Assembly: GCA_011772205.1 (NCBI GenBank)
Contig: WVZY01000008.1
Coordinates: 62,001 to 126,000 of the forward strand
DNA length: 64,000 nt
Source of the DNA: Candidatus Latescibacterota bacterium
GTDB taxonomy: Bacteria; Krumholzibacteriota; Krumholzibacteriia; WVZY01
Direction of reading: 5' to 3'
The notes below the pieces were generated by a model. That model was not told the DNA's origin. It did not search any database and saw only the letters and a list, made by a program, of their open reading frames with translations. Position 1 is the stretch's first letter; every line of letters starts with the position of its first letter. The position numbers and the translations under genes are program-made. Shown in pieces: positions 2,531 to 39,307 of the stretch.

Positions 2531-3808
2531 ATGTTCCCTGCACAAGAAAATCGATCCCCGACCCCTCCCAGCCACAAGTTCTCGAGACGCGAATTTCTCG
2601 AAACGGCAGCCCGTTTGGGCATCGTCCTAGGGAGCGCGGGGATCGCCCTCTCCTGCCCGCCATGGTTCAAACACCTGGTGGGTGCTGCAGCGGCCGCATC
2701 CACCCCACTCGATAAACTGCTGAAAGATGCCCCCCTTGCACGCTACTGGATATCGGCCAATTCCGAAGGCGTCCGGTGCTTGTCGTGCCACGCAGAAGAT
2801 GACGGAGTGGAGGGCACGCATTATGCCCACGAAAAACGCTTTGTGAAATGTCTTCTCTGCGCGCGGGAATGCCTCATTGAAGAAGGCGCCCGCGGACAAT
2901 GCCGGTCAAGAATGAATGTAAGCGGCAAGCTTCGAAGCCTCGTATATGGACGTCCTGTTTCGATCCACGTAGATCCGATCGAGAAGAAACCCTTTTTCCA
3001 TTTCCGCCCCGCTTCGGCGGCCTTTTCACTCGCCACCACGGGCTGTCCTCTGAGCTGCAAATTCTGCCAGAACTGGGAAATCTCCCAGGCAAGCCCCGAA
3101 GACTACGACACGAGATTCATCCCGCCGGAGAAAATCGTCAACGCAACGACCGACCACCGCGCTCCGATAATCGCATTCACTTACAACGAGCCAACGGTCT
3201 TTACCGAATACCTCACGGACATCGCCCGTATCGCGCGAAAACAAAACATCGCCAGCGTCCTCATCAGCTGCGGATTCATGAACGAGAAGCCCCTCGAAGA
3301 AATGTGCGATGTTCTGGATGCAATCAAAATCGATTTGAAAGGATTCAGTGAAGACTTTTACCGCCGGGTTTCGAGTGCCGAACTCAAACCGGTTCTCAGA
3401 AGCATCAAGCAGGTGCACAAAAGCGGCGTCCATCTGGAAATCGTCAATCTGGTCGTGCCTACATTGAACGACTCAAAAAAGATGCTTACGGATTTGGTGA
3501 AATGGGTGATGGGAGAATTGGGGGCGGATGTGCCGGTACATTTCACTCGCTTTCACCCGGATTACCAGATGCTGAACCTTCCCCCAACACCTGTGGCGAC
3601 GCTGGAACAGGCATACGAGATTGCCAAAGCAAACGGGATCCACTATCCTTTCGTAGGGAACGTACCCGGGCACCCAGGCAACAACACTCAATGCCCTGCG
3701 TGCGATAAAGTAGTAATTGCGAGAACCGGATTCTTCGTCACGGACCAGCACATAAAAAGCGGGCGCTGCGAATACTGCGACGAACCGATAGCAGGCGTTT
3801 GGGATTGA
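2531..3808 (+). CDS. amrS: AmmeMemoRadiSam system radical SAM enzyme with Tat-like leader
   Basis: A 425-residue radical S-adenosylmethionine enzyme of the family found with Memo and AMMECR1 proteins. The [4Fe-4S]-binding CxxxCxxC is CPLSCKFCQNW at about residue 171. It is preceded by cysteine pairs typical of this group (VRCLSCHAED, VKCLLCARECLIEEG) and followed by a C-terminal zinc-ribbon-like pair (CPACDK, CEYCDE). The N-terminus carries SRREFLETAARLG followed by a hydrophobic stretch, a good twin-arginine signal, which would place a folded Fe-S enzyme outside the cytoplasm or on the outer face of the membrane. The Memo-AMMECR1 gene starts 15 bases downstream. The reaction of this system is not settled to my knowledge. 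Confidence 0.9.
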   Translation: MFPAQENRSPTPPSHKFSRREFLETAARLGIVLGSAGIALSCPPWFKHLVGAAAAASTPLDKLLKDAPLARYWISANSEGVRCLSCHAEDDGVEGTHYAHEKRFVKCLLCARECLIEEGARGQCRSRMNVSGKLRSLVYGRPVSIHVDPIEKKPFFHFRPASAAFSLATTGCPLSCKFCQNWEISQASPEDYDTRFIPPEKIVNATTDHRAPIIAFTYNEPTVFTEYLTDIARIARKQNIASVLISCGFMNEKPLEEMCDVLDAIKIDLKGFSEDFYRRVSSAELKPVLRSIKQVHKSGVHLEIVNLVVPTLNDSKKMLTDLVKWVMGELGADVPVHFTRFHPDYQMLNLPPTPVATLEQAYEIAKANGIHYPFVGNVPGHPGNNTQCPACDKVVIARTGFFVTDQHIKSGRCEYCDEPIAGVWD

Positions 3809-3823
3809 TTTAGATAGAACTTC

Positions 3824-5362
3824 ATGAAGAAAGCTATTATACTTCTAGCACCGATCCTCCTTCTTAGCCAAAACGAAGCGATGGCCTCGAAAACCGATCG
3901 CAGATATAAAGCGAGTGTCCGCGAACCCGCGCGCGCCGATCAATTCTATCCAGGAGACCCAGCCCGACTGGAAAAAACGATCGATGCCTACATCAAAGAC
4001 GCCGTCCCACCTCATAAGGAAAAGCCGCTCGCCATAATTTCTCCTCACGCAGGCTATATATACTCAGGTCAGATCTGCGCGGATGCCTTCAACCAGGCGG
4101 CCGCTCATGATTACGATCTGATCGTTCTCCTTGGCACTAATCATACGAGCGGCGCGTTTCGAGGCGTATCGATCTATCCCGCAGGCGGTTACAAAACGCC
4201 CCTTGGCATCGCGGAGATAGACGATGCGCTCACTGCCGAGCTCATCGATGCGGACAAAGATTTCACATTCAAAGAGTCGGTGCACGTTCAGGAGCACTCG
4301 ATCGAAGTCATGGTGCCGTTTGTCCAGAAACTGTTCCCCGGCGCCAAGATTCTACCGGCCGTCGTCGGAACACCAGACCTCGACCTGTGCACGCGCTTCG
4401 GTGAGGCTCTTGCAAAAGCACTACGAGGTAAAAACGCGCTGATCGTTGCGAGCAGTGATCTGTCCCACTACCCCGAATACGAGAATGCGGTGAAGGCCGA
4501 TAAAAAGACGCTGGACGCGATCGTGAAAATGGACCCCGAGGAACTAAGAAGCACGATTCAAAAACAGCTCAGAGAGGGAATCCCCAACCTGTCCACATGC
4601 GCCTGCGGCCAGGCTCCAATACTAGCTGCGATGATTGCCGCGAAGAGACTTGGCGCGAAAGGGGCGCGGCTCATCAGCTACGCCAATTCAGGGGACACAC
4701 CGATTGGAAATCGCAGCCGCGTAGTCGGCTATGGCGCTGTTGCTTTTTATGATGATTTTGCGGAGAAGCCGCATCCCGAGGAACACCGGCCTGCTGAACC
4801 GAAAGACGAATTCATGCTCAATCGTCATCAAAAGAAGTCATTGCTCTCTTTTGCACGAAAAACAATCGAGCAATTCCTCGCAGCGGAAACTGTTCCGCTG
4901 GTCAGAGGTTTCGACCCCGTCCTCGAGAACAAAAAGGGTGCCTTCGTAACGCTCAACATGCACGAACGACTGAGGGGATGCATTGGACACATGGCGGAGG
5001 ATATGCCCCTTTGCCAGGTCGTCGGCTACTGTGCGACACAGGCCGCTTTCAATGACCGTCGCTTCTCACCCGTTACGTTGGAAGAATTACCGGACATCGA
5101 AATCGAAATCTCGGTCCTGACACCGTTTCAAGAAGTGGGCGGCGTGGAGGATATCCAGGTCGGGCGTGACGGAGTTTTGATAAAAAAGGGCGACCGCTCC
5201 GCCGTTTATCTCCCTTCCGTTCCCGTGGAGCAGGGCTGGAATCGTGAGGAGATGCTCGAGCATCTCTGCCTCAAAGCTGGGTTATCACGTAACGACTGGA
5301 AGAAGGGCGCGCGGTTCTTCACCTTCCAGGCAATGGCGTTTAGCGAGTCTGATCTAGAATAG
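3824..5362 (+). CDS. Memo-AMMECR1 fusion (AmmeMemoRadiSam system proteins B and A)
   Basis: This 512-residue protein joins two domains that are usually separate. The Memo domain (about residues 30-305) keeps the residues that line the metal site in human MEMO1: His in SPHAGYIYSG (residue ~74), His in LLGTNHT (~107) and Cys in CACGQAP (~261), as well as HVQEHSIEVMVPF. The AMMECR1 domain (about 330-510) has LRGCIGHM and FNDRRFSP, the family's most conserved segments. Residues 1-21 (MKKAIILLAPILLLSQNEAM) look like a Sec signal peptide, which matches the exported-looking radical SAM enzyme just upstream. It forms an operon with the genes on both sides. Confidence 0.92.
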   Translation: MKKAIILLAPILLLSQNEAMASKTDRRYKASVREPARADQFYPGDPARLEKTIDAYIKDAVPPHKEKPLAIISPHAGYIYSGQICADAFNQAAAHDYDLIVLLGTNHTSGAFRGVSIYPAGGYKTPLGIAEIDDALTAELIDADKDFTFKESVHVQEHSIEVMVPFVQKLFPGAKILPAVVGTPDLDLCTRFGEALAKALRGKNALIVASSDLSHYPEYENAVKADKKTLDAIVKMDPEELRSTIQKQLREGIPNLSTCACGQAPILAAMIAAKRLGAKGARLISYANSGDTPIGNRSRVVGYGAVAFYDDFAEKPHPEEHRPAEPKDEFMLNRHQKKSLLSFARKTIEQFLAAETVPLVRGFDPVLENKKGAFVTLNMHERLRGCIGHMAEDMPLCQVVGYCATQAAFNDRRFSPVTLEELPDIEIEISVLTPFQEVGGVEDIQVGRDGVLIKKGDRSAVYLPSVPVEQGWNREEMLEHLCLKAGLSRNDWKKGARFFTFQAMAFSESDLE

Positions 5363-5383
5363 TACGTTTCGAATCATCCTCCG

Positions 5384-7543
5384 GTGACTTTATATCTTCT
5401 CACCATCGGTTTCATTTCGATCCTCGGCCAGGTTGTGATTCTTCGCGAACTCAATGTCGCCTTTTACGGCATTGAATTGATCTACATACTGGCCATGGGG
5501 ATCTGGTTGCTCTGGTCCGCCGCCGGTGCATTGATCGGAAGAAGAGCCTACGCGCCCCCGGCAACCGTCGTCCGCTATTTATTCATTCTCTTTTCACTGT
5601 TGCTGCCCGTCGATGTGGCCTTTATCCGCGGCGCCAGAGTGTTGTTCGGCGGCATACCGGGTTCTTATCTTCCATTTGGCCTGCAGCTCGCGGCTATTTC
5701 TATCGCTCTTCTCCCGATCGGGATACTCATAGGCTTGCTGTTCCAATGGGCCGCAAAATTATATATCGCTAATGAGAGAACCCTTGCGCTCGCGTACGCG
5801 ATCGAAAGTGCGGGCGGGCTCGTCGGAGGGCTGGCCTCGACGCTGCTCCTCAAGTTTGGCATCCAGAACTTTACCATCGCCATCATTTGCAGCCTCGTGA
5901 CGGCTGGAATATTGTTGCTGCCTGCGAGAGAGAAACAAGGACGGCACAGATATGGCTTCATTGCTGCCTTCGGGATTTTCCTAGTCATTCTCCTCCTGTC
6001 TCCCGGGATCGACCATCGAATGACGCAATGGACGCATCCCAATCTTTTTGAATCCCGCGATTCTCCTTACAGCCGGATCACGATCGACAGCCGGGAAGAT
6101 CAGCTCGTGATGTTCGAAAACGACGCGTTTGCCTTCGAAACGGAAAGCGCCGCCTCGGAAGAACTCGTTCACCTCGCGGCCGTGCATCACGACAATTTGA
6201 AGGACGTCCTTATACTCGGCGGTGGTGTCGAAGGTTTACTGAGGGAGTTATCGAAACACAGTCCCCAGAGCGTCATTTATGTGGAGCTCAATCCTGTTCT
6301 GCTCGCATTGGCCGAGAAACATCTCCCCGAGGCCTACAAGGAGCCACTCAGGTCGAAAAATGTAACCGTTCGTACTACGGATCCTCGAAATTACCTAAAA
6401 AGCGCAGGTCTTTACGATCTCATACTGGTTGGAATGCCAGAACCTACGTCTGGCCAGTCCAACCGGTTTTTCACACGCGAGTTTTTCGCGCAATGCTCGG
6501 ATAGACTGAAGCCTGGAGGCGTATTGGCCTTTCGACTGCGCTCATCGGAAAACATATGGACTCAGCTCGTTACTTACAGAAATACGAGCATTCACCGCTC
6601 GCTGAAATCCGTATTTCAGGATCTAATCGTTCTTCCAGGTGTTACGAACACGATCATCGCATCGAACGCCTCACTCAGTCGGGATCCGGAGACATTGATC
6701 GGCAGATTCAACGACAAGAATATCGAAACGAGGCTCGTAACCCCGGAATACATCCACTATTTGTACACAAACGACAGATTCTTCGAAATTGCGAACCGCA
6801 TTGCCTCGGCAAATGTCCCCGCAAACACGGATATACGGCCCGTGTGCTACCGGTTTTCCAGCATGATCTGGCTGTCCAAGTTCATCCCCCAAATGATCAA
6901 CTGGGATCCCTCGTTCTTCGGGCGTTCGAGCGCAAACATTGTATCAAGCCTGTTGTTCATACTCGGTCTGGGAGCGCTGTTCTTACTCTCCCGCCGTAAA
7001 ATGCATTTACAACGGATCACACTCGCCGCGCTGGCGGGATTTATTGGGATGGTGCTGGAAACGATTTTAATCTTGCACTATCAAGTTAAGAGCGGCGTAC
7101 TTTTTCAAAATATCGGGATTCTATTGATGGTTTTCATGGCCGGACTGGCAGTGGGTTCCGTAGCCGTTCTGGATTCCGCCAGGGCTCACCTGCTGACATC
7201 CGGATCTATACCCAAAAGTCTAGGGCGAGGTTTGTTCATAGGCTTTGGGATTCTAAATTTGATTTTTATTGGATTGCTGAAACTCAACTATGCTTCAGGT
7301 CTATTGATCATATCGGTACTGTTGTTCTTGGCCGGCTTCTTCGTGTCCGGCATATTCGCATACGCCAGCCTGAGTGGAGTCAAAGATCAGAAGATCGTGG
7401 TCTCACCGCTCTACGCTGCCGATCTGTTGGGTGGGTGCATCGGATCGCTGCTGGGGAGCTTGTTGTTGATACCGCTTTTGGGGATGACTCAGTCGGCGGC
7501 CGTGATGCTCGCACTCGCTGTTGTTGCTCTTATACTAGTATAA
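5384..7543 (+). CDS. membrane-embedded spermidine-synthase-like protein
   Basis: A 719-residue protein with GTG start, 21 bases after the Memo-AMMECR1 gene. Residues 1-205 hold about six or seven hydrophobic helices, residues ~215-480 a Rossmann methyltransferase-fold domain of the spermidine/spermine synthase superfamily, and residues ~510-719 another membrane block. The nucleotide loop ILGGGVEGLL (~275) and YVELNPVLLALA are present. The catalytic YD-x-I-x-x-D segment of true spermidine synthases reads YDLILVGMPEP, so the usual catalytic Asp is missing. Polyamine synthesis is therefore doubtful. The steady association with a Memo/AMMECR1/radical SAM set suggests a role in the same membrane-associated modification. 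The substrate is unknown. Confidence 0.8.
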   Translation: MTLYLLTIGFISILGQVVILRELNVAFYGIELIYILAMGIWLLWSAAGALIGRRAYAPPATVVRYLFILFSLLLPVDVAFIRGARVLFGGIPGSYLPFGLQLAAISIALLPIGILIGLLFQWAAKLYIANERTLALAYAIESAGGLVGGLASTLLLKFGIQNFTIAIICSLVTAGILLLPAREKQGRHRYGFIAAFGIFLVILLLSPGIDHRMTQWTHPNLFESRDSPYSRITIDSREDQLVMFENDAFAFETESAASEELVHLAAVHHDNLKDVLILGGGVEGLLRELSKHSPQSVIYVELNPVLLALAEKHLPEAYKEPLRSKNVTVRTTDPRNYLKSAGLYDLILVGMPEPTSGQSNRFFTREFFAQCSDRLKPGGVLAFRLRSSENIWTQLVTYRNTSIHRSLKSVFQDLIVLPGVTNTIIASNASLSRDPETLIGRFNDKNIETRLVTPEYIHYLYTNDRFFEIANRIASANVPANTDIRPVCYRFSSMIWLSKFIPQMINWDPSFFGRSSANIVSSLLFILGLGALFLLSRRKMHLQRITLAALAGFIGMVLETILILHYQVKSGVLFQNIGILLMVFMAGLAVGSVAVLDSARAHLLTSGSIPKSLGRGLFIGFGILNLIFIGLLKLNYASGLLIISVLLFLAGFFVSGIFAYASLSGVKDQKIVVSPLYAADLLGGCIGSLLGSLLLIPLLGMTQSAAVMLALAVVALILV

Positions 7544-7615: not shown

Positions 7616-8911
7616 TTAACTCGCTATTGACAGCGACAGCAGCACTTCCCTCATTTTATCCAGGGTAACCGCTAGATCTTCCTCACTGTGCGCCGCCGAA
7701 ATAAACAGCGCTTCGAACTGGGACGGGGCGATATACACGCCTGCTTTTAGTAAGCTCGCGAAGTACTGTGAGAACATGTCGGTGTCCGACTCGGTAGCAT
7801 CCGAATAGGTTTCGATACGTCCGGGCTTGAAAAACAGGCATCCCATGGAATTGACATGATTCAAAGAGAGGGGTAGCTCGTTCTCCTCGATGAGCGCGAT
7901 GCTTTTTCCAAAAAAATCATTCGCTTTTCTATTCAATTCGTCGAAAAAGCCCGGCCTCGAGATAATCTCCAGCGTCTTCAGACCGGCTGTTACGGCCAGG
8001 GGATTCCCCGAGAGAGTCCCGGCCTGATACACCGGACCCGAAGGAGCCACCGTTTTCATTATTTCTCTCTTGCCGCCGTAAGCACCGACCGGCAAACCAC
8101 CCCCGATGACCTTGCCCATCGTGGTCAAATCGGGCGCGATATTATAGAGCGCTTGCGCGCCTCCCGGATGCACGCGGAAGCCGGTCATCACCTCGTCGAA
8201 AATAAGCACGCTCCCATATTGGCTGCATAGCTTCCGTAATCCTTCAAGAAATCCGGGTCTAGGCGGGATGACTCCCATGTTTCCGGCAACAGGCTCTACG
8301 ATGACCGCGGCGATCTCTTTCCCCGACTCATCGAACAATTTCTCAACGGATCCCAGGTTATTGAACTCGCCCGTCAATGTATCCTGTGCGGAACCCTTCG
8401 GCACACCCGGGCTGCTGGGCTCGCCCAGCGTGAGTGCTCCGGAACCCGCTTTGATCAGAAAGCTGTCCCCGTGGCCATGATAGCAGCCCTCGAATTTTAC
8501 GATCTTGTCGCGCCCGGTAACCCCGCGGGCCAGTCGGACGGCGCTCATCGTTGCTTCCGTCCCGGAATTCACGAGGCGGACCATATCCACCGACGGCACC
8601 ATTTCGATAATCTTTTCGGCCAGAAGGACTTCGATCTCCGTGGGCGCACCAAAACTCGTGCCCCTTGCAGCAGTGTCCTTCAAGGCTTGGACAACTTCCT
8701 CGTGGGCATGGCCGAGGATGAGCGGTCCCCAGGAGCCTACATAATCGATATATTCGTTTCCATCGACATCCCGGATCTTGCTGCCCTTTGCCGAGGCGAT
8801 AAAAACCGGATCCAGATTGACGGATCTAAATGCCCGAACGGGTGAATTTACACCGCCCGGCATGACTTTGTTCGCTTTTTCGAAATGTTGCTTGCTAAGC
8901 TTCCTGTTCAC
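7616..8911 (-). CDS. hemL: glutamate-1-semialdehyde 2,1-aminomutase
   Basis: PLP enzyme that converts glutamate-1-semialdehyde to 5-aminolevulinate, the second step of the C5 tetrapyrrole pathway. At 431 residues it has the family's usual length. Visible signatures are [13 protein letters not shown] at the N-terminus, [27 protein letters not shown], and the PLP-lysine loop [18 protein letters not shown]. It is the last gene of the hem operon, 61 bases after hemB. Placing hemL and hemB at the 3' end resembles the hemAXCDBL order of Bacillus, although here hemE, hemN, hemH and hemY are inserted before them. Confidence 0.97.
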
Positions 8912-8972
8912 TTCACACTCCCGGTCATTTCCGGAGTAGATCCTTCACTCGTACCGCGTGTGTGGAATTTTC

Positions 8973-9953
8973 TCACTCGCTCAGCCACCCGGCCGCTTCT
9001 TTCGCGAAATACGTCAGAATGATGTCGGCTCCGGCGCGCTTGATGGACGTGAGCATCTCGAGCGCCACTCTCTTCTCATCCACCCAGCCGAGCTGCCCCG
9101 CTGCTTTCACGAGCGAGTACTCGCCGCTCACATTGTACGCTGCTACTGGAAGATCGATCTCCTGTCTGACGCGAGCGATGATGTCGAGATAGGGCATGGC
9201 GGGTTTCACCATGATGATATCGGCGCCTTCGGCCACATCCAGCTCCACCTCGAACAATGCTTCGCGGGCATTCGCCGGATCCATTTGATAAGAACGCCTG
9301 TCGCCGAACTGCGGCGTCGATTCGGCCGCATCACGGAAAGGACCGTAAAAAGCGGATGCATACTTCGCCGCGTAGCTCATGATCGGAATGTTGGCGTAGT
9401 TGTTTTCATCGAGCGCGTCACGAATGGCGCCCACCATGCCGTCTATCATGCCGGATGGTGCAACCATATCGACTCCGGCTTTCGCATGTGTGACGACCTG
9501 TCTGCCGAGCATTTCAAGAGTTGCGTCGTTGTCCAGCTCTCCGTTTACGATAGCCCCACAATGCCCGTGATCGGTATACTCGCAAAAGCACACATCCGTG
9601 ATGACGTACATTTCCGGCACTGCATCTTTGATTGCTCTTACCGAACGCTGGATGATTCCCTCGTCGCTGGTGGCATCGCTCCCCATTGGGTCTTTTTTGG
9701 CGGGAATACCGAACAGAATGATCGCCGGGATGCCCAGCGTATTCACTTCTCTCACTTCATCTACGAGCAAATCGGTGGACAGCTGACACACTCCTGGCAT
9801 TGAATTGACCGGATTTTTTACGCCTTTACCTTCGGTCACAAACAATGGATATACCATATCGTTTATAGATAGGGCGGTTTCACGAACCATCCGTCGGATG
9901 TTTTCGTTTTGGCGGAGTCTTCTCGGTCGAAAATAAGGATTAAACATCTTCAT
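8973..9953 (-). CDS. hemB: delta-aminolevulinic acid dehydratase (porphobilinogen synthase)
   Basis: Condenses two molecules of 5-aminolevulinate to porphobilinogen. The 326-residue protein has the Schiff-base lysine segment [13 protein letters not shown] and a cysteine-rich metal site, [14 protein letters not shown]. The three Cys there mark the zinc-dependent class, rather than the magnesium-dependent class in which they are replaced by Asp/Ala. It lies 27 bases after hemY and is followed by hemL. All features are standard for the family. Confidence 0.97.
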
Positions 9954-9980
9954 CCTTCCTCATGATACGCTTTTGAAGAA

Positions 9981-11378
9981 TTATGGCTGTGTGTCTCGGG
10001 TGCCGTCACCCATTCTCTCGGTAATCTTCTGAACGGTCTCGTGGGCGCACAGTACGCTGTCGCCAATGCCTATGCCGCGCCGGAAATTACCGGCGAAAAA
10101 CAAACCGTGAAATTCATTTTCGAGGTTATCGAACATGGCCTGATACTCCAGATATCCCATCGTGTATTGCGGGATCGCCCTCGGCCAACGCTTGATTCGA
10201 ACGAATATGGGCTGGCCGCGAAGACCAACCAGATCATTCAAGTCATTATATACGATTTCCCCCAAACGTTCGTCATCGAGTTCAGCATTTTGGGGTTGCC
10301 TTGCGCCCCCGACAAAGGTCGTAAAGGCCGCGAATCCTTCGGGTGCCCGGTCGGGAAAGATGGATGAACTCCAAATACTGCCCAGAATCTCCCGATTCTC
10401 CACTTTCGGGATCAAGAACCCAAAGCCGTCGAGCTCTCTCGCGATGTCTTCCTCTCGGAACGCCATAAAAACCACGGCGACGGGGGGATAGTTGATTTCG
10501 CTGATCCGCCGGGCTTCTTCAGGAGCCAGATCTTTGAGAATGCTGGACATAGCATCCGTCGGGACGGAGAGGACTACTGCTTCGAACTGCCTCTGCTCAG
10601 CTTTTCCGTCGATGTCCAGCTCGACCGAGAATAATCCCTCTTCGCGTATCTGCTTCACCTCGGCATTCAAAAACACCCTATCTCCCAAGCGCTCGGCCAG
10701 AGCGTTCGTGAACGCATCCATTCCACTCTTGAACGAAAACAGCCTCGCCCGATCTTTGCTCACCTCTCCTCTTTTCTTGCGCTCGCGGGCGCCTTTGATG
10801 GCTCCCTTGATCAGGCTTCCGTGCTTCTGTTCGAGGGCGTACAGCTTCGGGAACGCCGCCGGCGCGCTGAGAGATTCCGGATCGCCAGCGTAAACACCTG
10901 CAACAAAGGGATTTATGGCATAATCGAGAAACTCATCGCCCAAACGACGGCGGACAAAATCAGCCAGTGAGAGGTCTCTTTGATTGGTCGGTTTGATGAA
11001 CGGTTCTCTCAACAGCCGGAGCTTGGCTCGAGTGGAGAACAGCCCGGATTTGAGGAATTTTATGGGCGACATGGGAAGCGCGCATAGCTGCCCACCCTTG
11101 ACGATATATCGGTTATTCGATATCGCGTTTCCATAGACCTTATCTCCTTCGATGCCCAGCTCTCGGATCAGATCTCTCAGAACGTTTGATGTCTCGAGCG
11201 CGCTGTTGGGCCCCAGGTCGATCAAGAAGCCGTTCTGCCTCTCGGTAATGATGGTGCCACCCACACGGGACGCCCTCTCGAATACCGAAACATCGAAGCC
11301 GCTCTTAACGAGCCAATAGGCGGTGCTCAATCCTGAAATTCCTGCACCGATGACGGCTATGCGTTTGCCATTTGCCAT
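9981..11378 (-). CDS. hemY: protoporphyrinogen oxidase, FAD-dependent (HemY type)
   Basis: FAD enzyme that oxidises protoporphyrinogen IX to protoporphyrin IX. The FAD-binding motif is RIAVIGAGISGLSTAYWL at the very N-terminus, and the C-terminal FAD motif is LFFAGNFRRGIGIGDSV. I placed the start at the Met of MANGKRIAVIG because AAGGTGG precedes it by about eight bases. The frame stays open upstream to 11423, but those residues are basic and unlike the family. The length is then 465 residues. The HemY class normally uses oxygen as acceptor, which contrasts with the oxygen-independent HemN encoded two genes upstream. Some databases list this family as hemG. Confidence 0.93.
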   Translation of the reverse strand: MANGKRIAVIGAGISGLSTAYWLVKSGFDVSVFERASRVGGTIITERQNGFLIDLGPNSALETSNVLRDLIRELGIEGDKVYGNAISNNRYIVKGGQLCALPMSPIKFLKSGLFSTRAKLRLLREPFIKPTNQRDLSLADFVRRRLGDEFLDYAINPFVAGVYAGDPESLSAPAAFPKLYALEQKHGSLIKGAIKGARERKKRGEVSKDRARLFSFKSGMDAFTNALAERLGDRVFLNAEVKQIREEGLFSVELDIDGKAEQRQFEAVVLSVPTDAMSSILKDLAPEEARRISEINYPPVAVVFMAFREEDIARELDGFGFLIPKVENREILGSIWSSSIFPDRAPEGFAAFTTFVGGARQPQNAELDDERLGEIVYNDLNDLVGLRGQPIFVRIKRWPRAIPQYTMGYLEYQAMFDNLENEFHGLFFAGNFRRGIGIGDSVLCAHETVQKITERMGDGTRDTQP

Positions 11379-11477
11379 GCGTTGCCACCTTATGAATTTT
11401 TTTCGGCGCAGAGTCCGATCCATGTATGATCATTTGTATTCACATTCGAAGATTTCCGCATGTTCATGAGATGCAGC

Positions 11478-12455
11478 TCAATTCGACCATTTTTCGATAA
11501 CAATCTGCTTCAATGCATCGATGAACAGCGCATCCGTATTGAGCGCGCCGATACGCCGAAAGGTTTTGATCCCTTTGTTCAGTGCTCGATCTTTGAAGAA
11601 CATTCCGATTTCATAAACCGTCTCCGAATTGTCCGCCACGAAGCCTAGCGGGTAGACGAGCAGATGCTTGACGCCTTTTTCCGCTAGTTCGTCGATCTTA
11701 GCTGACGTAGCCGGTTCCAGCCATTTCACAGGTCCCAATTTGCTTTGATACGACAGATGCAATCCCACGCTATTGGGCAACAGGCTTTTGATCGCTTCCA
11801 CGGATCTTTCGACCTCATCCCTATAGGGATCCCCTTTTTTGATCAACCGGAGCGGAATGCTGTGAGCGCTCAGAAGGAGTTCGACAGGTTCCTCGTTTGA
11901 TACAGTGTCTTCACGCAGAGCTCGTTTTATCTGTTCGACCATGGCTTTTACGAAGGCCGGGTGATCCCCATAACGGTCGATGATAATCAGGTTTTCCCCG
12001 TCAAAATCCTTGCTTCGATTGAGATATTCGATGTGTTTGACGAGCGATCCGGTTGTTGATTTGGAATAAAATGGAAACAGAGTGACGACGACCAGCCTTT
12101 TAAAGCCATTGGCGACGATCTCACGCCATACATCGTCGATCAATGGATGCCAGTAGCGCATCGCCGGAAAAACCCTGAACTCATCCACACCCGTTGCATT
12201 CAGGCTTTCTTCCAGAAGTGCCGCCTGCTTTTGAGTAATTGCCGTTAAAGGCGTTTTTCCTCCGATTTTCTCATAGATCGCCTTGCTCTCCGGCTCGCGC
12301 TTCTTCGCCAGCCAGCGTGCGAACCGCTCGCGAATGATGCTCGGCATGGGAATATCAATGATATCCGGATCTCTGAAAAAATTGGAGAGATAAGGTCTAA
12401 CGGCGTCCAGTGAGTCGGGGCCACCTATGTTGGAAATCATCAATGCTGTCGCCAT
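11478..12455 (-). CDS. hemH: ferrochelatase
   Basis: Inserts Fe2+ into protoporphyrin IX (or coproporphyrin III in the alternative pathway) to complete heme. The 325-residue protein shows ISNIGGPDSLDAVRPYL at the N-terminus, the catalytic His segment LLLSAHSIPLRLIKKGDPY, and a C-terminal FVADNSETVYEI, all typical. With hemN and hemY in the same operon and no hemQ visible, the protoporphyrin-dependent route is the likely one. It lies 40 bases after hemN and 99 bases before hemY. Confidence 0.95.
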   Translation of the reverse strand: MATALMISNIGGPDSLDAVRPYLSNFFRDPDIIDIPMPSIIRERFARWLAKKREPESKAIYEKIGGKTPLTAITQKQAALLEESLNATGVDEFRVFPAMRYWHPLIDDVWREIVANGFKRLVVVTLFPFYSKSTTGSLVKHIEYLNRSKDFDGENLIIIDRYGDHPAFVKAMVEQIKRALREDTVSNEEPVELLLSAHSIPLRLIKKGDPYRDEVERSVEAIKSLLPNSVGLHLSYQSKLGPVKWLEPATSAKIDELAEKGVKHLLVYPLGFVADNSETVYEIGMFFKDRALNKGIKTFRRIGALNTDALFIDALKQIVIEKWSN

Positions 12456-12495
12456 TTGTTACCAAAGCCAATCTGTTATTTATTATGCAGTCACT

Positions 12496-13887
12496 TCAAA
12501 CGGTTTTAGAATACTGAGGGCCCTCGCTCGCTTCATCCTCCAGGTACGCATCGAAGTTCATGGCAATGTTTCGAATCAGCAGGCGACCTTGATCGGTTAC
12601 GAGAATGGTGCCATTTTCGAGAATGACAAGATCATCATTTCGAAAGGGCTTGAGACTCTCGAGTGCATTTTCGAAATAGGAATCGAAGTCTATATTATAT
12701 TTTTTCTCTATGCGCGCCTTCACGAGCCTGAAATTGCACATCAATTCCATGATGACCTCTCGCCGCAGCCGGTCATCCCCCGACAGCTCATAGCCCCGCA
12801 TGATGGGTAGCTGTCCTTCATCCAGCTTCTGGTAATATTCTTTGAGTTTCTTGTAATTCTGGACGTACAGCTTCGGAAGAAGACTGATGCTGGACATTCC
12901 CAAGGCGAACAGATCCAATCCTGCATTCGTCGAATATCCCTGGAAATTGCGGTACAAGGTACCTTCCCTCATCGCAACGGTCAACTCATCATCTGGTTTG
13001 GCGAAATGGTCCATACCAATATAGACGTATCCGTTATCCGTCAATCTCTCTATGCTCAGCTTGAGCAGCTGCAGTTTCACTTCTGGTGAAGGCAATGTCT
13101 CATCTCTGATCAGCTTCTGGTGCTTGATCATCTTCGGGAGGTGGGCGTAATTGAACACGGCCAGCCGATCCGGATCGAACCGGATAATCTTGTCCAGAGT
13201 CACAGAGAATTTTTCGACCGATTGGAACGGCAATCCGTACATCAGGTCTACGTTTACACTTTGAAAACCGAGCTCTCGGGCCCAATCGATCGTTTGCTTG
13301 GTAATGTCTTCTGGTTGAACGCGGTTGACCGATTCCTGAACTTTTGGATCGAAATCCTGAATGCCCATGCTGCAGCGGTTAAAACCGACTTCGCTCAACG
13401 CTGCCATATGATCTCTCGTCAGCCCACGCGGATCGATCTCCACGCCAACCTCGGCTCCATCCGTAAAATCGAACCGGTTGCGGACGGCATTTCCCAGTCG
13501 CCGTATTTGATCGGGAGGAAGATAGCTGGGCGTTCCCCCGCCCCAATGGAGCTGAGCAACCTTGCGGCCCTGGCTGATGAGAGGCCTAATGAGTTCGATT
13601 TCTTTTATCAAATACTCGACATATTCCTCGATGCGTTCCCTGTGATGGGTAACCAGCATGTTGCAGCCGCAGAAATAACAAAGCGTATCGCAGAAAGGGA
13701 GATGGAAATAAAGCGAGATGTCCTGATCACTCTTCAGGCGGTCGTTATCCTTGATGTGATCCACATATTGTTGCGGACCAATCCCTTCGTGGAAGTAAGG
13801 CGCGGTTGGATAGCTGGTATAGCGCGGCCCAGAGCGGCTGTACTTCTTCAACAGATCTATATTTACGATCAATTTATTTCTTCCCAT
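12496..13887 (-). CDS. hemN: oxygen-independent coproporphyrinogen III oxidase
   Basis: Radical SAM enzyme that decarboxylates coproporphyrinogen III to protoporphyrinogen IX without oxygen. At 463 residues it is full length. The cluster motif reads CDTLCYFCGCN, where the extra Cys after CxxxCxxC is a mark of genuine HemN rather than the HemW-like paralogues. HWGGGTPSYL follows, and the N-terminal segment YSRSGPRYTSYPTAPYFHEG is also HemN-specific. This supports heme synthesis under anoxic conditions. It lies between hemE (26 bases) and hemH (40 bases). Confidence 0.97.
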   Translation of the reverse strand: MGRNKLIVNIDLLKKYSRSGPRYTSYPTAPYFHEGIGPQQYVDHIKDNDRLKSDQDISLYFHLPFCDTLCYFCGCNMLVTHHRERIEEYVEYLIKEIELIRPLISQGRKVAQLHWGGGTPSYLPPDQIRRLGNAVRNRFDFTDGAEVGVEIDPRGLTRDHMAALSEVGFNRCSMGIQDFDPKVQESVNRVQPEDITKQTIDWARELGFQSVNVDLMYGLPFQSVEKFSVTLDKIIRFDPDRLAVFNYAHLPKMIKHQKLIRDETLPSPEVKLQLLKLSIERLTDNGYVYIGMDHFAKPDDELTVAMREGTLYRNFQGYSTNAGLDLFALGMSSISLLPKLYVQNYKKLKEYYQKLDEGQLPIMRGYELSGDDRLRREVIMELMCNFRLVKARIEKKYNIDFDSYFENALESLKPFRNDDLVILENGTILVTDQGRLLIRNIAMNFDAYLEDEASEGPQYSKTV

Positions 13888-13913
13888 TCCATTGCCTTTT
13901 CATGAATGAGCGA

Positions 13914-14975
13914 TTATGTAATGTCGCTGCTCGAATGTAATCTCTCGCTTTGAGAGCGGACTTCGTCTACGAGAAATTGGACGTTTTCCACAGGCACATC
14001 CGGCAGGATGCCGTGTCCAAGATTGAACACATGACCGCTCTCACCTTTGAACACTTGCAAAATGTTACTTACTTCCCGCTGAATGACCCCCCCGCCGCCG
14101 TAAAGCACGGTTGGATCCAAATTGCCCTGAAGAGCAGCAACCTTGCCGGCAAGAGCTTTTGCTTCCGCGATATCCGTCATCCAATCCACTCCCAGTACGT
14201 CCGCCCCACTATCGGCCAACACTTTGATGAATTCGATGCCGCCCTTGCTGAACAACGTAATCGGCACTCCGAGCGGTTTCAGCGCTGCGACGATTTTTCT
14301 CATGTAACTTGCGGAGAATTGACTGAAGAGATGAACGGGTAAAATCCCTCCCCACGTATCGAAGATCTGGAGCGCCTGCGCACCCGCATTCACCTGCATC
14401 GTGAGGTAGCGGATGACGGCTTCTGTCAGCATATTCAACAGGCGTGTGAGCCGATCGGGCTCGCTATACAGCAGCGTTTTGATATGTTTGAAATTACGCG
14501 TCGGCTTCCCCTCGACCATGTAGGTAGCCAGGGTAAAGGGTGATCCGCTGAATCCAATGAGCGGTACCGTTCCCGACAGCTCGGCGCTGATTAACTTGAC
14601 TGCTTCGCCAACATACTCGAGCTTTTGCTCGAGGCTCTCCGTGCTGAGGATCTCAAAATCTTTGTCTTCGAGAATTTGCGGCGACAGTTTCGGGCCGTGA
14701 TCTTCCATGAATTCCAGTTGCTGTCCCATCGCCTCGGGAATCACCAGAATATCCGAAAAGAGAATGGCCGCATCGAATTCAAAACGGCGTATGGGCTGCA
14801 AGGTGACTTCCATGGCCAGTTCCGGCGTTTTACAAACGGTGATGAAGTCATATTTTTCACGCACGCTCCGGTACTCGGGCAAATACCGCCCGGCCTGACG
14901 CATGATCCAAATAGGAGTTCGCCGCACAGGCCTCTTGTAGATCGCATCGATATATAATTGATTTTGATCCGTCAT
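13914..14975 (-). CDS. hemE: uroporphyrinogen decarboxylase
   Basis: Decarboxylates uroporphyrinogen III to coproporphyrinogen III, a cofactor-free reaction. The 353-residue protein has the family's N-terminal signature RRTPIWIMRQAGRYLPEYR, whose Arg residues bind the substrate carboxylates, then GFSGSPFTLATYMVEG and FNLGHGILPDVP near the C-terminus. GGAGGA lies upstream of the ATG. Its position after hemD commits the branch-point intermediate to heme rather than to siroheme. Confidence 0.97.
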   Translation of the reverse strand: MTDQNQLYIDAIYKRPVRRTPIWIMRQAGRYLPEYRSVREKYDFITVCKTPELAMEVTLQPIRRFEFDAAILFSDILVIPEAMGQQLEFMEDHGPKLSPQILEDKDFEILSTESLEQKLEYVGEAVKLISAELSGTVPLIGFSGSPFTLATYMVEGKPTRNFKHIKTLLYSEPDRLTRLLNMLTEAVIRYLTMQVNAGAQALQIFDTWGGILPVHLFSQFSASYMRKIVAALKPLGVPITLFSKGGIEFIKVLADSGADVLGVDWMTDIAEAKALAGKVAALQGNLDPTVLYGGGGVIQREVSNILQVFKGESGHVFNLGHGILPDVPVENVQFLVDEVRSQSERLHSSSDIT

Positions 14976-14993
14976 GGCGGCTCGGTTCCTCCA

Positions 14994-15764
14994 TCAATTT
15001 CTATTCGAGTAAAACGCAGCCAGCGCCTCAACGAAATCCTCTACAAGGCTTCTATCAGGTACGACATCCACGTTAAGATTCAGCTTCGCAATCGCTTTTG
15101 ATGTCGTCGGTCCGATAGCAGCGATAGTGACGGCGCTTTTCTTGATGTCTTCCACGATCGGCTCGCCAACTATTTCGATAAAATAATTGAACGCCGACGG
15201 GCTGAAAAACGTCAAACAATCGATCTCATCGTTTTTTATTTGCATACGCATACTCTCCGCGTCCACCGAGCGGTTCGCTACAGTATGGTAGACCACCAAT
15301 TTGTCCACACGGGCGCCGAGTTCGATCAGGCCCTCGGGCAATCTCCTGTAGGCGATGTTCGAGGTGGGCAGCAAGAACCGCGCACCCCTCAGCTCAAGAG
15401 CAGAGAACGCGTTCAGCAATCCACTAGCTGTGTGTTCATCGGGCACCAGGTCCGCTTTTCTGCCGCGCTTCTCGAGCGCTTCGGCGGTTCTCTTTCCGAC
15501 GGCTGCTACTTTGAAGGATTCGCCGGACAGGTTGAGCTCGTTCAATCGATCGAAAAAGTAATTCACTCCGTTCACACTCGTAAAAACGACCCAATCATAT
15601 GAACGCAAGCCCGATAACGCCGCATCGCAGGCCTGCCAGTCATCCGGTTCGCGAATCTCGATCGTTGGGAAAAAGATAGCTTTGCCTCCCAGCTCTTTGA
15701 TTCTCCGAGCCAAACTCTCTGCCTGGCTTTTATCCCTGGTAATGACAATCCTGCGGTTTCTCAT
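14994..15764 (-). CDS. hemD: uroporphyrinogen-III synthase
   Basis: Cyclises hydroxymethylbilane with inversion of ring D. The family is weakly conserved. The two-domain pattern is visible: IVITRDKSQAESLARRIKE at the N-terminus, DWVVFTSVNGVNYFF in the first domain, and DCLTFFSPSAFNYFIEI plus TIAAIGPTTSKAI in the second. I placed the start at MRNRRIVITRDK, five bases after the hemC stop. The frame is open upstream into hemC, but those residues are not family-like. The length of 256 residues is usual. Confidence 0.93.
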   Translation of the reverse strand: MRNRRIVITRDKSQAESLARRIKELGGKAIFFPTIEIREPDDWQACDAALSGLRSYDWVVFTSVNGVNYFFDRLNELNLSGESFKVAAVGKRTAEALEKRGRKADLVPDEHTASGLLNAFSALELRGARFLLPTSNIAYRRLPEGLIELGARVDKLVVYHTVANRSVDAESMRMQIKNDEIDCLTFFSPSAFNYFIEIVGEPIVEDIKKSAVTIAAIGPTTSKAIAKLNLNVDVVPDRSLVEDFVEALAAFYSNRN

Positions 15765-15769
15765 TTCGG

Positions 15770-16711
15770 TTACTCTTTCCGATACTGTCCAAGGAGCTCG
15801 AGAGCGCCACAAGCGATGAACTTCTCGGCCAGCTCTATTCCGGTCCTTTCGACGGCATCCTCATCTCCTTGATGACGCTCGATAAACGAAGTTCGACCAT
15901 CTTCGCTGCCCACAAAACCGATGATGACAATCGAATGACTTTCCACCTTTGCACGAGCACCGACCGGGAATTGACACCCGCTGTCCAGCCGATGCAAGAA
16001 TGCGCGTTCTGCAAGCACGGCTCTATGGGTCGCTGCGTGATCCAGACGTTCGACGATCTCTTTCGTTTGTTCATCGCCCTCCCTGATTTGAACGCCTATC
16101 GCTCCCTGTCCAACGCCGGGTATCATCTCCTCCGTGCTAAACGTATAATAGGAAACCTGATCCAATCCGAGACGCACCAGCGCCGCTTTGGCTATTACGA
16201 TCGCATCCAAATTCTCATTGCGGAGCTTGCGAAGCCGCGTATCGATGTTGCCGCGCAGGTCCTTTATTTCGAGATCGGGACGACGAGCCAGTAATTGAGA
16301 ACGCCTCCGAATGCTGCCCGTCGCCACCGCCGCTCCGTGACAAAGCTCCAGCAACGACCTCCCATCCTCTGTTACCAACACATCTTCCACGGGCCCCCTG
16401 GGCGGCACGGATCCGAGCGCCAGCCCTTCAGTCATCTTCGAGGGCAGATCTTTCAGACTGTGCACGGCAATGTCCACTGTCCGGTCGAGCAACGCTACCT
16501 CGATAGCCTTGGTGAACACACCCAGACCGCCAATGCTCGCCAGAGAAGAGCTTTGATCGCGGTCGCCTTCTGTTTTTACGATTACTTGTTCGAAGCTGAT
16601 ATCCGGAAAATTCCGTTTCAATTCGGCTTCTACAAATCCGGCCTGCCAAAGTGCAAGTTGGCTGCCGCGCGTTCCAATCCGAATTCGCTCCATGGCTCCC
16701 CGATCGATCAT
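15770..16711 (-). CDS. hemC: hydroxymethylbilane synthase (porphobilinogen deaminase)
   Basis: Polymerises four porphobilinogen units to hydroxymethylbilane. The 313-residue protein shows IRIGTRGSQLALWQ, HSLKDLPS, RGNIDTRLRKL and the dipyrromethane cofactor Cys in FLHRLDSGCQFPVGA. Its ATG overlaps the hemA stop codon by four bases (ATGA), which indicates translational coupling. A second in-frame Met six codons downstream is also possible as the start. Confidence 0.97.
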   Translation of the reverse strand: MIDRGAMERIRIGTRGSQLALWQAGFVEAELKRNFPDISFEQVIVKTEGDRDQSSSLASIGGLGVFTKAIEVALLDRTVDIAVHSLKDLPSKMTEGLALGSVPPRGPVEDVLVTEDGRSLLELCHGAAVATGSIRRRSQLLARRPDLEIKDLRGNIDTRLRKLRNENLDAIVIAKAALVRLGLDQVSYYTFSTEEMIPGVGQGAIGVQIREGDEQTKEIVERLDHAATHRAVLAERAFLHRLDSGCQFPVGARAKVESHSIVIIGFVGSEDGRTSFIERHQGDEDAVERTGIELAEKFIACGALELLGQYRKE

Positions 16712-17997
16712 TCCTGATCAAGTTCGTATAGATCGCGCATCAATTCGACATTTTGTTGATGGCGTTCTGGATCCGTGGCGGTTTTTTTCAACGTTTTTAT
16801 ATGCTGATGCATCAATTTGTTCATTATGCTCTGCGTGAGGTAGTCGATTTCATCCATGTTATCTTTGGGCAATCGCTTTCTCAATCGATTCATCTCACTG
16901 CGCCGAATATGGTCGAAATATCTTCTCAGGCGGTTGATGGTCGAAGATGTGGAATGCGTCGCGATCCACTTTTCGAACTCAACGACATATCGATCGAGGA
17001 TTTTGAACGACTTTGGCATCTCCTGCTTTCTTTTGTCCAAATTGATTTGTACGATTGCTTGCAAATCGTCGAGATTGTACAAATATATGCCATCAATCTT
17101 GTCTACGTCGGGATCGATGTCTCTCGGAATTGCCAGATCGATCAAGAACATCGGAGCGTACCGGCGCGCTTTGCTGATCTCACTCATGAATTCCGCACTC
17201 AATACATGGTCCGAACTCGAAGTTGCGGAAATCACAATATCCACGCCATTGAAAGCGGATGAGAGCTCATCGAATCCGTAAGCCTTCCCATTGAATCGAC
17301 CAGCCAGCTCCCTCGCTTTTTCGAGAGTCCGATTCACTACAGCGATGCTTCCCGCACCTTTCTCCAAAAAGTGCTGGGCGGCAAGCTCCGCTGTCTCACC
17401 TGCGCCTATTAGGAGAAGATGTCTGTCGTCGAATGTGTTGAAAATCTTTCTGGCAAGTTCAACCCCTGCAAAGCTGATGGAAACAGCACCGTCAGCCAGG
17501 AAGGTGTTCCTTCGTATTTTTTTTTGCGCTTGGAGACCAAAGCTGATAATTTTGTTCAGCAGTGAATCCGTTGTTTTCAGTTCCTTTGCCAGGTTATAAG
17601 CATCCTTGACCTGCCCCGTAATTTGCGGCTCTCCGACGACCTGCGCATCCAAGCTGGATATAACGCTGAAAAGGTGGCGAACTGCATCCAAACCAGTTAA
17701 AACATAAGCGTACTGCTCGTTGGTGAAATAACCGCTCTTCTTATAACCATCCAACCACCGCTGGATTTCTGGAATAACTGTTTCGTACTCTTCCGCGCTT
17801 ATATAAACCTCAGTGCGGTTGCATGTGGAAACAACTAGGCAACCGTCGATTTCGAATGCTTTCGACAGAGAGCGTAGGACGGATTCCTGCTCTTTCGCGT
17901 CCAGCGCCACCTTTTCTCTGATCTCTATTGGCGCGGTTTTGTGCGAAATCCCAATCAGAGCGATTGGTACGGAGTGATCCAGGTTCAACTCGCTCAT
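16708..17997 (-). CDS. hemA: glutamyl-tRNA reductase
   Basis: First committed enzyme of the C5 pathway; it reduces glutamyl-tRNA(Glu) to glutamate-1-semialdehyde with NADPH. The 429-residue protein contains IGISHKTAPIEIREK, the catalytic Cys in VVSTCNRTEVY, GEPQITGQVKDAY, the NADPH loop LLIGAGETAELAAQHF and a C-terminal dimerisation helix. It overlaps the upstream hemX/ccsA-like gene by one base and hemC by four, so the three are tightly coupled. Confidence 0.97.
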   Translation of the reverse strand: MSELNLDHSVPIALIGISHKTAPIEIREKVALDAKEQESVLRSLSKAFEIDGCLVVSTCNRTEVYISAEEYETVIPEIQRWLDGYKKSGYFTNEQYAYVLTGLDAVRHLFSVISSLDAQVVGEPQITGQVKDAYNLAKELKTTDSLLNKIISFGLQAQKKIRRNTFLADGAVSISFAGVELARKIFNTFDDRHLLLIGAGETAELAAQHFLEKGAGSIAVVNRTLEKARELAGRFNGKAYGFDELSSAFNGVDIVISATSSSDHVLSAEFMSEISKARRYAPMFLIDLAIPRDIDPDVDKIDGIYLYNLDDLQAIVQINLDKRKQEMPKSFKILDRYVVEFEKWIATHSTSSTINRLRRYFDHIRRSEMNRLRKRLPKDNMDEIDYLTQSIMNKLMHQHIKTLKKTATDPERHQQNVELMRDLYELDQE

Positions 17998-18821
17998 TAG
18001 TAGAACTTGTGAAATGTTTCAGTCAAAGTAAAGACTATGACTCCACTGGTCATTAAAATCAAAAAACCGGATAGCGAAAGATAAGCCATCCAGCGACCTC
18101 TCCATTTCATGGCACGCGCCAGGGCGTAACTAGTAAAGTATGAGAGCCAGATAATATCCGAAATGATCACTTTGGGATCAGCGAACCAGAATGATCCAAG
18201 AACTCTACTTGCCTGAACATGTCCCATAAATATGCCGACTCCCAGCAAGATAACTCCGATAGCCACAGACCGGATACTCATCGACTCGAGATAGTCCAAA
18301 GGTGGCATTTGGTGATAAATGGCCCCGAACCGCCGCTTTTTCATGTTCTGATGATGGATGATGTACATTAAGGCATAAATCGCGGATAAGGATAACGCTG
18401 TGTATCCCATGACCGTTAGCGAGGCATGTATGGCAAATGTCGGGCTGCTCAGCAGCTCGTTGGTCTCGCGCTCCCAAGTGTGGTTGAACGAAGAGATGAG
18501 CTGAAGCAAAAAGGCAAATGAAAGAATGAACAATCCCGAGGCCTTATTTTTTATCCCCGACTCGATGAGAAGGTAAATGAACAAAATGGAGAATGCCAAA
18601 AAAGAGAGCGCATCGAATGCTGTTGAAAACGGCATCGCTCGCAAGGAAGAGAGGCGAATCGCAATCTCTGCCGCATGAGAGATCAGGAGAGCAATCAAAA
18701 TAGGAAACGTCTTGTTCTCCAGCTCTTTCTTTTTCCCGAAAAAAATGTTGTAATATATATAAACGGCACAAAGATAGAATACCGGTAGAATATAACTAAG
18801 AATTTGGCTCAACTGCTTCAC
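17997..18821 (-). CDS. HemX/CcsA-like cytochrome c assembly family membrane protein
   Basis: A 274-residue polytopic protein with about eight hydrophobic helices, of the cytochrome c assembly (CcsA/CcmC/HemX) superfamily. The tryptophan-rich segment that handles heme in true CcsA (usually WxWDPKE) reads GSFWFADPKV, a weakened form typical of the HemX-like proteins encoded in hem operons. It starts with GTG, with AGGGAG upstream, and is the first gene behind the hem promoter. In Bacillus subtilis, HemX lowers the amount of HemA. A similar role here, or a role in heme delivery, is an inference from position. Confidence 0.85.
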   Translation of the reverse strand: MKQLSQILSYILPVFYLCAVYIYYNIFFGKKKELENKTFPILIALLISHAAEIAIRLSSLRAMPFSTAFDALSFLAFSILFIYLLIESGIKNKASGLFILSFAFLLQLISSFNHTWERETNELLSSPTFAIHASLTVMGYTALSLSAIYALMYIIHHQNMKKRRFGAIYHQMPPLDYLESMSIRSVAIGVILLGVGIFMGHVQASRVLGSFWFADPKVIISDIIWLSYFTSYALARAMKWRGRWMAYLSLSGFLILMTSGVIVFTLTETFHKFY

Positions 18822-37942: not shown

Positions 37943-37945
37943 GTG

Positions 37946-39307
37946 ATGCGAAAGCGATGCTTCATAGGAGGCACCGGCATTATCCTGGCATCAAGGCTCT
38001 TACTACCACTTTCGGGGATCAACGGATCTACACTCGGCCTGTATCCGTACGACCGCTTCGACGAGCCCGACATCTGCGCCGAATGTCACATCGATATATC
38101 GAGTCAGTACTCGCAATCCTTGATGTCGCAATGCTTCACTCATATGTGGGACGAGATCGAGTATTTCGAACTCGCGCTACCACACAGCCAAAAAGAACCA
38201 AAGGTTGCCGAAGTGGAAGCAGGTTGCAACGGCTGTCATGCACCGCTCGCTTACCTCGCGGGCGATATCCCTCCCAAGCGCCCGGCGGAAGGGACGCGTG
38301 CCAATGAGAGCGTTTCCTGCGACATCTGTCACACGATGACCGGCTTCGAAGGGGATACTCCATTCAACTTCAACTATGCCCACGAGCCGGGGGATACAAA
38401 GCAAGGCGTCCGCAAGGGAACGGAAAGCCCCGGCCACTTGATAAAGGTGAATCCGTTCCTAAACACTGCCGAGTTATGCGGCGTCTGCCACAACGAGAAG
38501 GATCCATTTGGACAATGGGTGAAAGCGACACATCTCGAGTGGAAGGACGGACCGTATGCAAAGGCCGGCATCACTTGCCAGGACTGTCACCTCCCGGCCG
38601 CTCCCGGGAAAAGCGATCCGGAAGATGGCATAGAACATCCGGATGTCCGCCAACACCTCTTTCATGGAGCGCATGATACGGGAAAACTCTTGGGATCAAT
38701 AGAAGTGCGGATTCACCCAAACATGACAAATGCGGCGCCGGGCGACGAAGTCAAACTCACCGCCGTGGTCATAAACGCAAAAGCGGGCCACATGATCCCG
38801 TCGGGATCGGCGGAGGAGCGCGTCGTTTGGATTCATGTCGAAGCGGTGGACGCGGACGGCCGCAGACATCATCTGCCCGTGGATCGAAAAGGCTTCGACG
38901 GCGAAGCATTCACCATCGCGTCTTCGACTGAGATGGCTTACCAGGATATCGGTGAGATCCAGGATATTCCTGAATTCCAAGGCCTCAAACGGGACGGTAG
39001 CGTTCCGGACGGGGACCGCATCTTTCGACTTCCCTATCTCGACCCACAAGGCCGGATGACGATCGCGCAGTGGAACACGGCAGGCTTCGGCCCGGATTAT
39101 CGCCTCGCACCGCTGGAGGCCGTAACGGAAGGTTATACGTGGAAACTCTCCGAAGATATGCCTGAAGGACCGGTGATTGTGCGGGCCACGGTGTGGTACT
39201 CGCGGCTCATCGATTCGGTTGCGCAGTTCCTAGCAGTGCCCGCCGCTGAATACGAACCGGTAAAGATCAGCGAGCACGCAACGACATTCACGATTGTGCA
39301 ACACTAG
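37946..39307 (+). CDS. pentaheme c-type cytochrome
   Basis: A 453-residue multiheme cytochrome. Five CxxCH heme sites are visible: CAECH (~45), CNGCH (~94), CDICH (~126), CGVCH (~178) and CQDCH (~211). They all lie in the first half; the second half is a beta-rich domain (EVRIHPNMTNAAPGDEVKLT, NAKAGHMIPSGSAEERVVWI). The N-terminus MRKRCFIGGTGIILASRLLL is an uncleaved anchor or signal. The arrangement resembles periplasmic nitrite- or hydroxylamine-type and other cytochrome c554-like proteins, but the role is not known. GGGGAGG precedes the start; GTG at 37943 is also possible. Confidence 0.88.
   Translation: MRKRCFIGGTGIILASRLLLPLSGINGSTLGLYPYDRFDEPDICAECHIDISSQYSQSLMSQCFTHMWDEIEYFELALPHSQKEPKVAEVEAGCNGCHAPLAYLAGDIPPKRPAEGTRANESVSCDICHTMTGFEGDTPFNFNYAHEPGDTKQGVRKGTESPGHLIKVNPFLNTAELCGVCHNEKDPFGQWVKATHLEWKDGPYAKAGITCQDCHLPAAPGKSDPEDGIEHPDVRQHLFHGAHDTGKLLGSIEVRIHPNMTNAAPGDEVKLTAVVINAKAGHMIPSGSAEERVVWIHVEAVDADGRRHHLPVDRKGFDGEAFTIASSTEMAYQDIGEIQDIPEFQGLKRDGSVPDGDRIFRLPYLDPQGRMTIAQWNTAGFGPDYRLAPLEAVTEGYTWKLSEDMPEGPVIVRATVWYSRLIDSVAQFLAVPAAEYEPVKISEHATTFTIVQH

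Follow-up and report, generated by a model that had tools for sequence, protein, structure and literature searches.

Our results point to a variant of the AmmeMemoRadiSam system that is located in the cell envelope and runs parallel to a cytoplasmic set, with heme c as the probable point of electron entry and a membrane partner that may handle an adenosyl compound, a reading that we consider likely as a whole. The three genes concerned belong to recognizable families, and the trio is conserved. The window, by which we mean the whole stretch of DNA analyzed (64,000 nt, positions 62,001 to 126,000 of contig WVZY01000008.1, assembly GCA_011772205.1, Candidatus Latescibacterota bacterium), carries them on one strand with intergenic gaps of 15 and 21 bp, an operon-like spacing:

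2531..3808, forward strand: RS, AmmeMemoRadiSam radical SAM enzyme, 425 aa, with a Tat leader (TIGR04337, PF04055)
3824..5362, forward strand: MA, Memo-AMMECR1 fusion, 512 aa, with a Sec-type leader (TIGR04336, TIGR04335, PF01875, PF01871)
5384..7543, forward strand: SS, MFS-like membrane protein with a spermidine-synthase-like domain, 719 aa (PF01564)

These open reading frame coordinates and family matches agree with the original prediction, which had placed the same three gene types here, and its central proposal, that an AmmeMemoRadiSam set is exported and goes together with a membrane protein, gains support from the conservation of both the leaders and the trio. It had not mentioned a CXXCH motif in RS, nor the MFS-like architecture and predicted periplasmic placement of SS, all of which are described herein.

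The survey of gene neighborhoods that had been suggested as a check found the trio to be conserved. Specifically, 54 named loci extend 4.5 kb or more beyond RS on its downstream side; of these, 46 have MA, 44 SS, and 43 both. Eleven genomes were examined either for want of a partner close to RS or on account of an unusual RS, and SS was found in 10 of them and MA in 10; MA and SS are immediate neighbors, away from RS, in Desulfonema magnum and a relative. In Desulfonema magnum (L158/L166), the Memo protein is exported and without an in-frame AMMECR1 half, SS follows directly, and RS is about 2 Mb away. Further, of 78 genomes (the host's own and those of relatives), 24 had SS as well as a leader-type RS, 7 had only that RS, 4 had only SS, and 43 had neither, with several of the single cases at contig ends; the corresponding Fisher p of 3.9e-10 overstates the co-occurrence because related genomes are not independent. 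A wider conserved operon was rejected, as the clustering of all neighbors revealed no widely shared fourth gene, none being present in more than 15 of 104 loci. Also rejected as part of the operon was a run encoding an ABC-2 permease, ABC_transp_aux, and DUF4340, which is confined to some relatives. In other families (L045, L046, L056, and others), this run adjoins RS and MA of the exported type, and in the host it lies directly upstream of the Memo-AMMECR1 gene of the cytoplasmic set (L067, 5156-10456, own contig 8).

RS is an AmmeMemoRadiSam radical SAM enzyme by its match to TIGR04337 (355.7 bits, cut-off 220), and its AF2 model (pLDDT 90.0) has pyruvate formate-lyase activating enzyme as the nearest PDB fold (TMt 0.81). 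The two share this fold and the CxxxCxxC motif, whereas the activating enzyme is cytoplasmic, is 17-18% identical to RS, and has neither a leader nor the extra Cys sites nor CXXCH. Three cysteine sites of RS are invariant in both of our alignments (A1 and A2):

2849..2902, forward strand: N-terminal four-Cys site C107, C110, C114, C124, common to the cytoplasmic enzymes
3044..3067, forward strand: radical SAM cluster motif C172xxxC176xxC179
3692..3778, forward strand: C-terminal four-Cys site C388, C391, C413, C416

MA, in turn, matches TIGR04336 (Memo-like protein B) with 253.7 bits against a cut-off of 26 and TIGR04335 (AMMECR1-like protein A) with 170 against a cut-off of 99. Its metal-site-type residues H75, H107, H154, H158, and C261 are conserved and are present in the cytoplasmic paralogue too. 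Judged by these invariant residues, both the radical SAM and the Memo sites are retained. The Memo part also matches PF02900 just below the cut-off of that model, and Memo resembles LigB-type dioxygenases.

The host genome encodes a second set. A second RS on contig 68 fits the family model far better than the window RS (649 bits, full length), a second Memo-AMMECR1 fusion is found on contig 8, and leaders are absent from both. RS matches in relatives separate into two groups, a leader-type one with about 44-61% identity and a cytoplasmic one with about 36-44%, and most of the relatives' genomes with a leader-type RS carry a cytoplasmic-type RS too. Because the two coexist in the host and in most leader-type genomes, the exported set would be an addition rather than a relocation. 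Relative to the cytoplasmic form, with which it shares the radical SAM, Memo, and AMMECR1 families (TIGR04337/04336/04335) and intact Cys sites and metal-site-type residues, the window set adds leaders on RS and MA, a conserved third membrane gene, and, in this clade, CXXCH.

The leaders, called from motif and hydropathy readings, lie at the following positions:

2582..2599, forward strand: twin-arginine motif SRREFL (RS aa 18-23), then a hydrophobic stretch; an RRx[FIL] type leader in most orthologues
3824..3886, forward strand: MA leader MKKAIILLAPILLLSQNEAMA, next residue S; a hydrophobic leader in orthologues

Both had been predicted, the former as twin-arginine-type and the latter as Sec-type, and both are kept in kind among orthologues of several phyla. 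Specifically, the leader-group RS share the consensus [S/T/D/G]RRx[FIL] and, after it, a hydrophobic stretch, with very few exceptions; 85 of the 101 RS rows in a quick tree have the Tat motif and 2 more a KR variant, while none of the cytoplasmic RS paralogues in the comparison has it. Among MA orthologues, 59 of 61 begin with a hydrophobic leader, many ending in a lipobox-like Cys, a pattern that reads as Sec/lipoprotein-type. RS therefore bears the mark of a Tat substrate, an RR pair before a hydrophobic stretch that is kept in orthologues, and the host encodes TatC (227.5 bits, 254 aa frame). These conserved features strongly suggest that RS and MA are exported and that SS is oriented as described below, both of which we hold to be very probable. 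Next to the RS with the KR leader, a further protein that has a Tat leader, with CxxCPRRC at its N-terminus, is encoded on the reverse strand (L154, 9120-10166) and may be another exported radical SAM-like enzyme.

Two alternatives would place the chemistry in the cytoplasm. In the first, what reads as a leader is a wrongly called start or an N-terminal anchor, and the enzymes stay inside, as three RS rows with no room for a leader (L140, L149, and L152) and, in some MA proteins, an internal Met immediately ahead of the Memo domain might suggest. We regard this as very improbable, given that orthologues from different phyla keep the RR motif and the hydrophobic stretch, that nearly all MA orthologues have leaders, and that positive charge precedes the hydrophobic stretch (N-in, C-out), so that even uncleaved leaders would still put the catalytic domains outside. 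The same charge pattern speaks against the possibility, raised with the original prediction, of anchors that leave those domains in the cytoplasm. SS is present in both of the leaderless-RS genomes searched for it (L140 and L149), and the L149 genome has a leader-bearing MA despite its leaderless RS. The internal Met recurs in L046, L056, L063, and other MA genes and could be a second start that yields a cytoplasmic form. In the second alternative, RS acts before or during export, or for a single turnover with SAM bound in the cytoplasm, and neither periplasmic SAM nor a periplasmic reductant is needed. Tat is generally known to export folded, cofactor-loaded proteins, which suits this scenario, but a conserved SS domain predicted to lie outside does not, and MA, with its Sec-type leader, would not fold in the cytoplasm; we consider this scenario improbable. 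Hence, an envelope location for RS and MA is the reading that we carry forward.

The third component, SS, matches PF01564 with 77 bits, and in its AF2 model (pLDDT 87.7) seven helices precede the synthase-like domain:

6035..6928, forward strand: spermidine-synthase-like domain of SS (aa 218-515), between TM7 and TM8, predicted to be periplasmic from loop charges
6431..6433, forward strand: Gly350 at the position of the catalytic Asp (VGMPEP vs DSxDP), from alignments to Thermus SpeE and among orthologues

Over 52 orthologues, the loops after TM2, 4, 6, 8, 10, and 12 have on average 2.6, 2.2, 2.5, 3.5, 3.7, and 1.7 Lys/Arg residues, against 1.0, 2.0, 0.1, 0.7, 0.4, and 0 in the odd loops, and loops 6 and 8, which flank the domain, are strongly K/R-rich. 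Since the domain forms the loop between TM7 and TM8, the positive-inside rule predicts that it should face the periplasm. The membrane halves (aa 1-180 and 544-719) align with each other by profile over 164 columns (E 6.7e-7), TM1 with TM9, so the core appears to have an MFS-like 6+6 layout, with two additional helices that take the domain across the membrane. A fold search with SS returned the spermidine synthase domain, but not the membrane core, among the best matches; the PDB matches of the domain are spermidine synthases (TMt about 0.7-0.8).

The active site is altered in the manner originally predicted, as Gly350 of the VGMPEP motif stands where spermidine synthases have the catalytic Asp. 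The ribose-binding-type Glu301 is invariant among orthologues, Asp333 and GGG are nearly so, and a new stretch, PePxSxQxNRFYT, is conserved. We infer that the domain binds an adenosyl compound but does not carry out the classic aminopropyl transfer. A transferase role, in which the domain on the periplasmic side acts on the substrate shared with RS and MA and takes SAM or a similar adenosyl compound as donor (such as the transfer of an aminopropyl or aminocarboxypropyl group by an altered chemistry), is conceivable but doubtful: the fold, the retained Glu301 and Asp333, and the new motif would accord with it, while the Gly in the catalytic position argues against it and the 6+6 MFS-like core suggests transport. 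The fused MFS/spermidine synthases (NF037959) and membrane SpeE (PRK03612) also join a transmembrane core to a spermidine-synthase-like domain, but SS scores below both models (34.3 bits, cut-off 40, and 102 bits, cut-off 472, respectively). It differs from them in lacking the catalytic Asp and in its tie to AmmeMemoRadiSam, and probably also in a domain that sits between two six-helix halves with two extra helices.

The requirement for SAM and for a reductant of very low potential is the reason why radical SAM chemistry is regarded as cytoplasmic. For the reductant, a candidate answer in the window's clade (66 rows, support 100), based on a motif and its pattern of inheritance, would be heme c, whose putative site lies between the leader and the catalytic core of RS in the clade alignment:

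2777..2791, forward strand: CXXCH (C83-L-S-C86-H87), putative heme c attachment site in RS
2828..2830, forward strand: His100, which lies 6 residues ahead of core Cys107; candidate for the distal ligand of the heme

CxxC is present in 49 of the 66 clade rows; in each of these, His comes next and another His follows before the core begins, placed exactly six residues ahead of Cys107 in 41 of them. CXXCH and the later His are absent together from the other 17 rows, which are mostly Smithella and Syntrophaceae and include one truncated by a contig end (L126). RS thus conserves CXXCH in a probably exported protein, as c-type heme proteins do, and the pattern matches that expected of a heme c site. 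The motif does not occur in any row from the remaining exported RS clades; this absence, together with its loss in the Syntrophaceae/Smithella group, implies that heme is not essential to all exported members. For the synthase that would attach the heme, Cytochrom_C_asm proved non-discriminating as a marker because it also matches a HemX-like heme gene, and CcmF_C and ResB were used instead. CcmF or ResB is present in all 24 tested genomes with CXXCH against 11 of 14 clade genomes without it, a weak association (hypergeometric p about 0.04) that is phylogenetically nested and drawn from incomplete genomes; the host has a cytochrome c synthase, with CcmF_C at 234.9 bits alongside Cytochrom_C_asm matches.

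We therefore lean toward a covalently bound heme c at C83-C86-H87. As an alternative within an exported set, CXXCH and the later His could bind zinc or play a structural role, with electrons coming from elsewhere. Four conserved ligands could make a Cys2His2 metal site, and relatives without CXXCH keep the remainder of RS; the invariant His directly after the second Cys is, by contrast, the hallmark of heme c, and a cytochrome c synthase is encoded in every genome with CXXCH that was tested, which leaves a zinc or structural role rather unlikely. Tat normally transports folded proteins, and heme c attachment needs an unfolded segment. Attachment of heme to a Tat-exported RS would, hence, need the stretch at aa 81-100, modeled as flexible (pLDDT 68-77), to be accessible.

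With heme c as the preferred reading, the system might work as follows. RS would fold with its iron-sulfur cluster in the cytoplasm and then be exported by Tat, while MA would be exported by Sec and, in relatives, often be lipid-anchored; SS would present an adenosyl-binding, catalytically altered synthase-like domain to the periplasm. In the window's clade, electrons could move from the heme c to the SAM cluster, possibly by way of the extra Cys sites, a route that we hold with less confidence than the heme itself. The remaining steps are the most speculative: SS might carry SAM, or a different adenosyl compound, over the membrane to RS or take away 5'-deoxyadenosine, a role that we judge less likely than not, and RS and Memo-AMMECR1 would then modify an envelope substrate. 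We know of no source of periplasmic SAM. The most complete version, a periplasmic radical SAM enzyme reduced via its own covalent heme c, with a dedicated transporter-like partner supplying SAM or removing the nucleoside product, is speculative and, taken whole, unlikely.

If true, a widespread exported system would overturn the cytoplasm-only view of this chemistry, imply SAM or a relative of it outside the inner membrane, and introduce a new electron route from heme c to iron-sulfur clusters. Human relatives of Memo and AMMECR1 are linked to disease, and the exported form offers a handle on Memo/AMMECR1 function, as its substrate must be reachable from the cell envelope. The published open-access literature, to which our search was confined, held no description of an exported AmmeMemoRadiSam form and no matches for a periplasmic radical SAM enzyme or for AMMECR1 together with LigB. 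AmmeMemoRadiSam itself appeared only in passing, and its activity was undescribed in the papers found. Among these, a Memo-Ammecr1-type radical SAM enzyme was mentioned only in PMC7159879, in connection with peptide processing.

Two further heme-related features lie in the window. A long heme biosynthesis run on the reverse strand (7616-18821), convergent with the trio and directly after it, includes hemL, hemB, porphobilinogen deaminase, glutamyl-tRNA reductase, and a HemX-like Cytochrom_C_asm protein; its placement next to the trio is not conserved in relatives. Farther along, on the forward strand (37943-39307), is a gene for a protein with five CXXCH motifs and weak similarity to MtrC/cytochrome c7.
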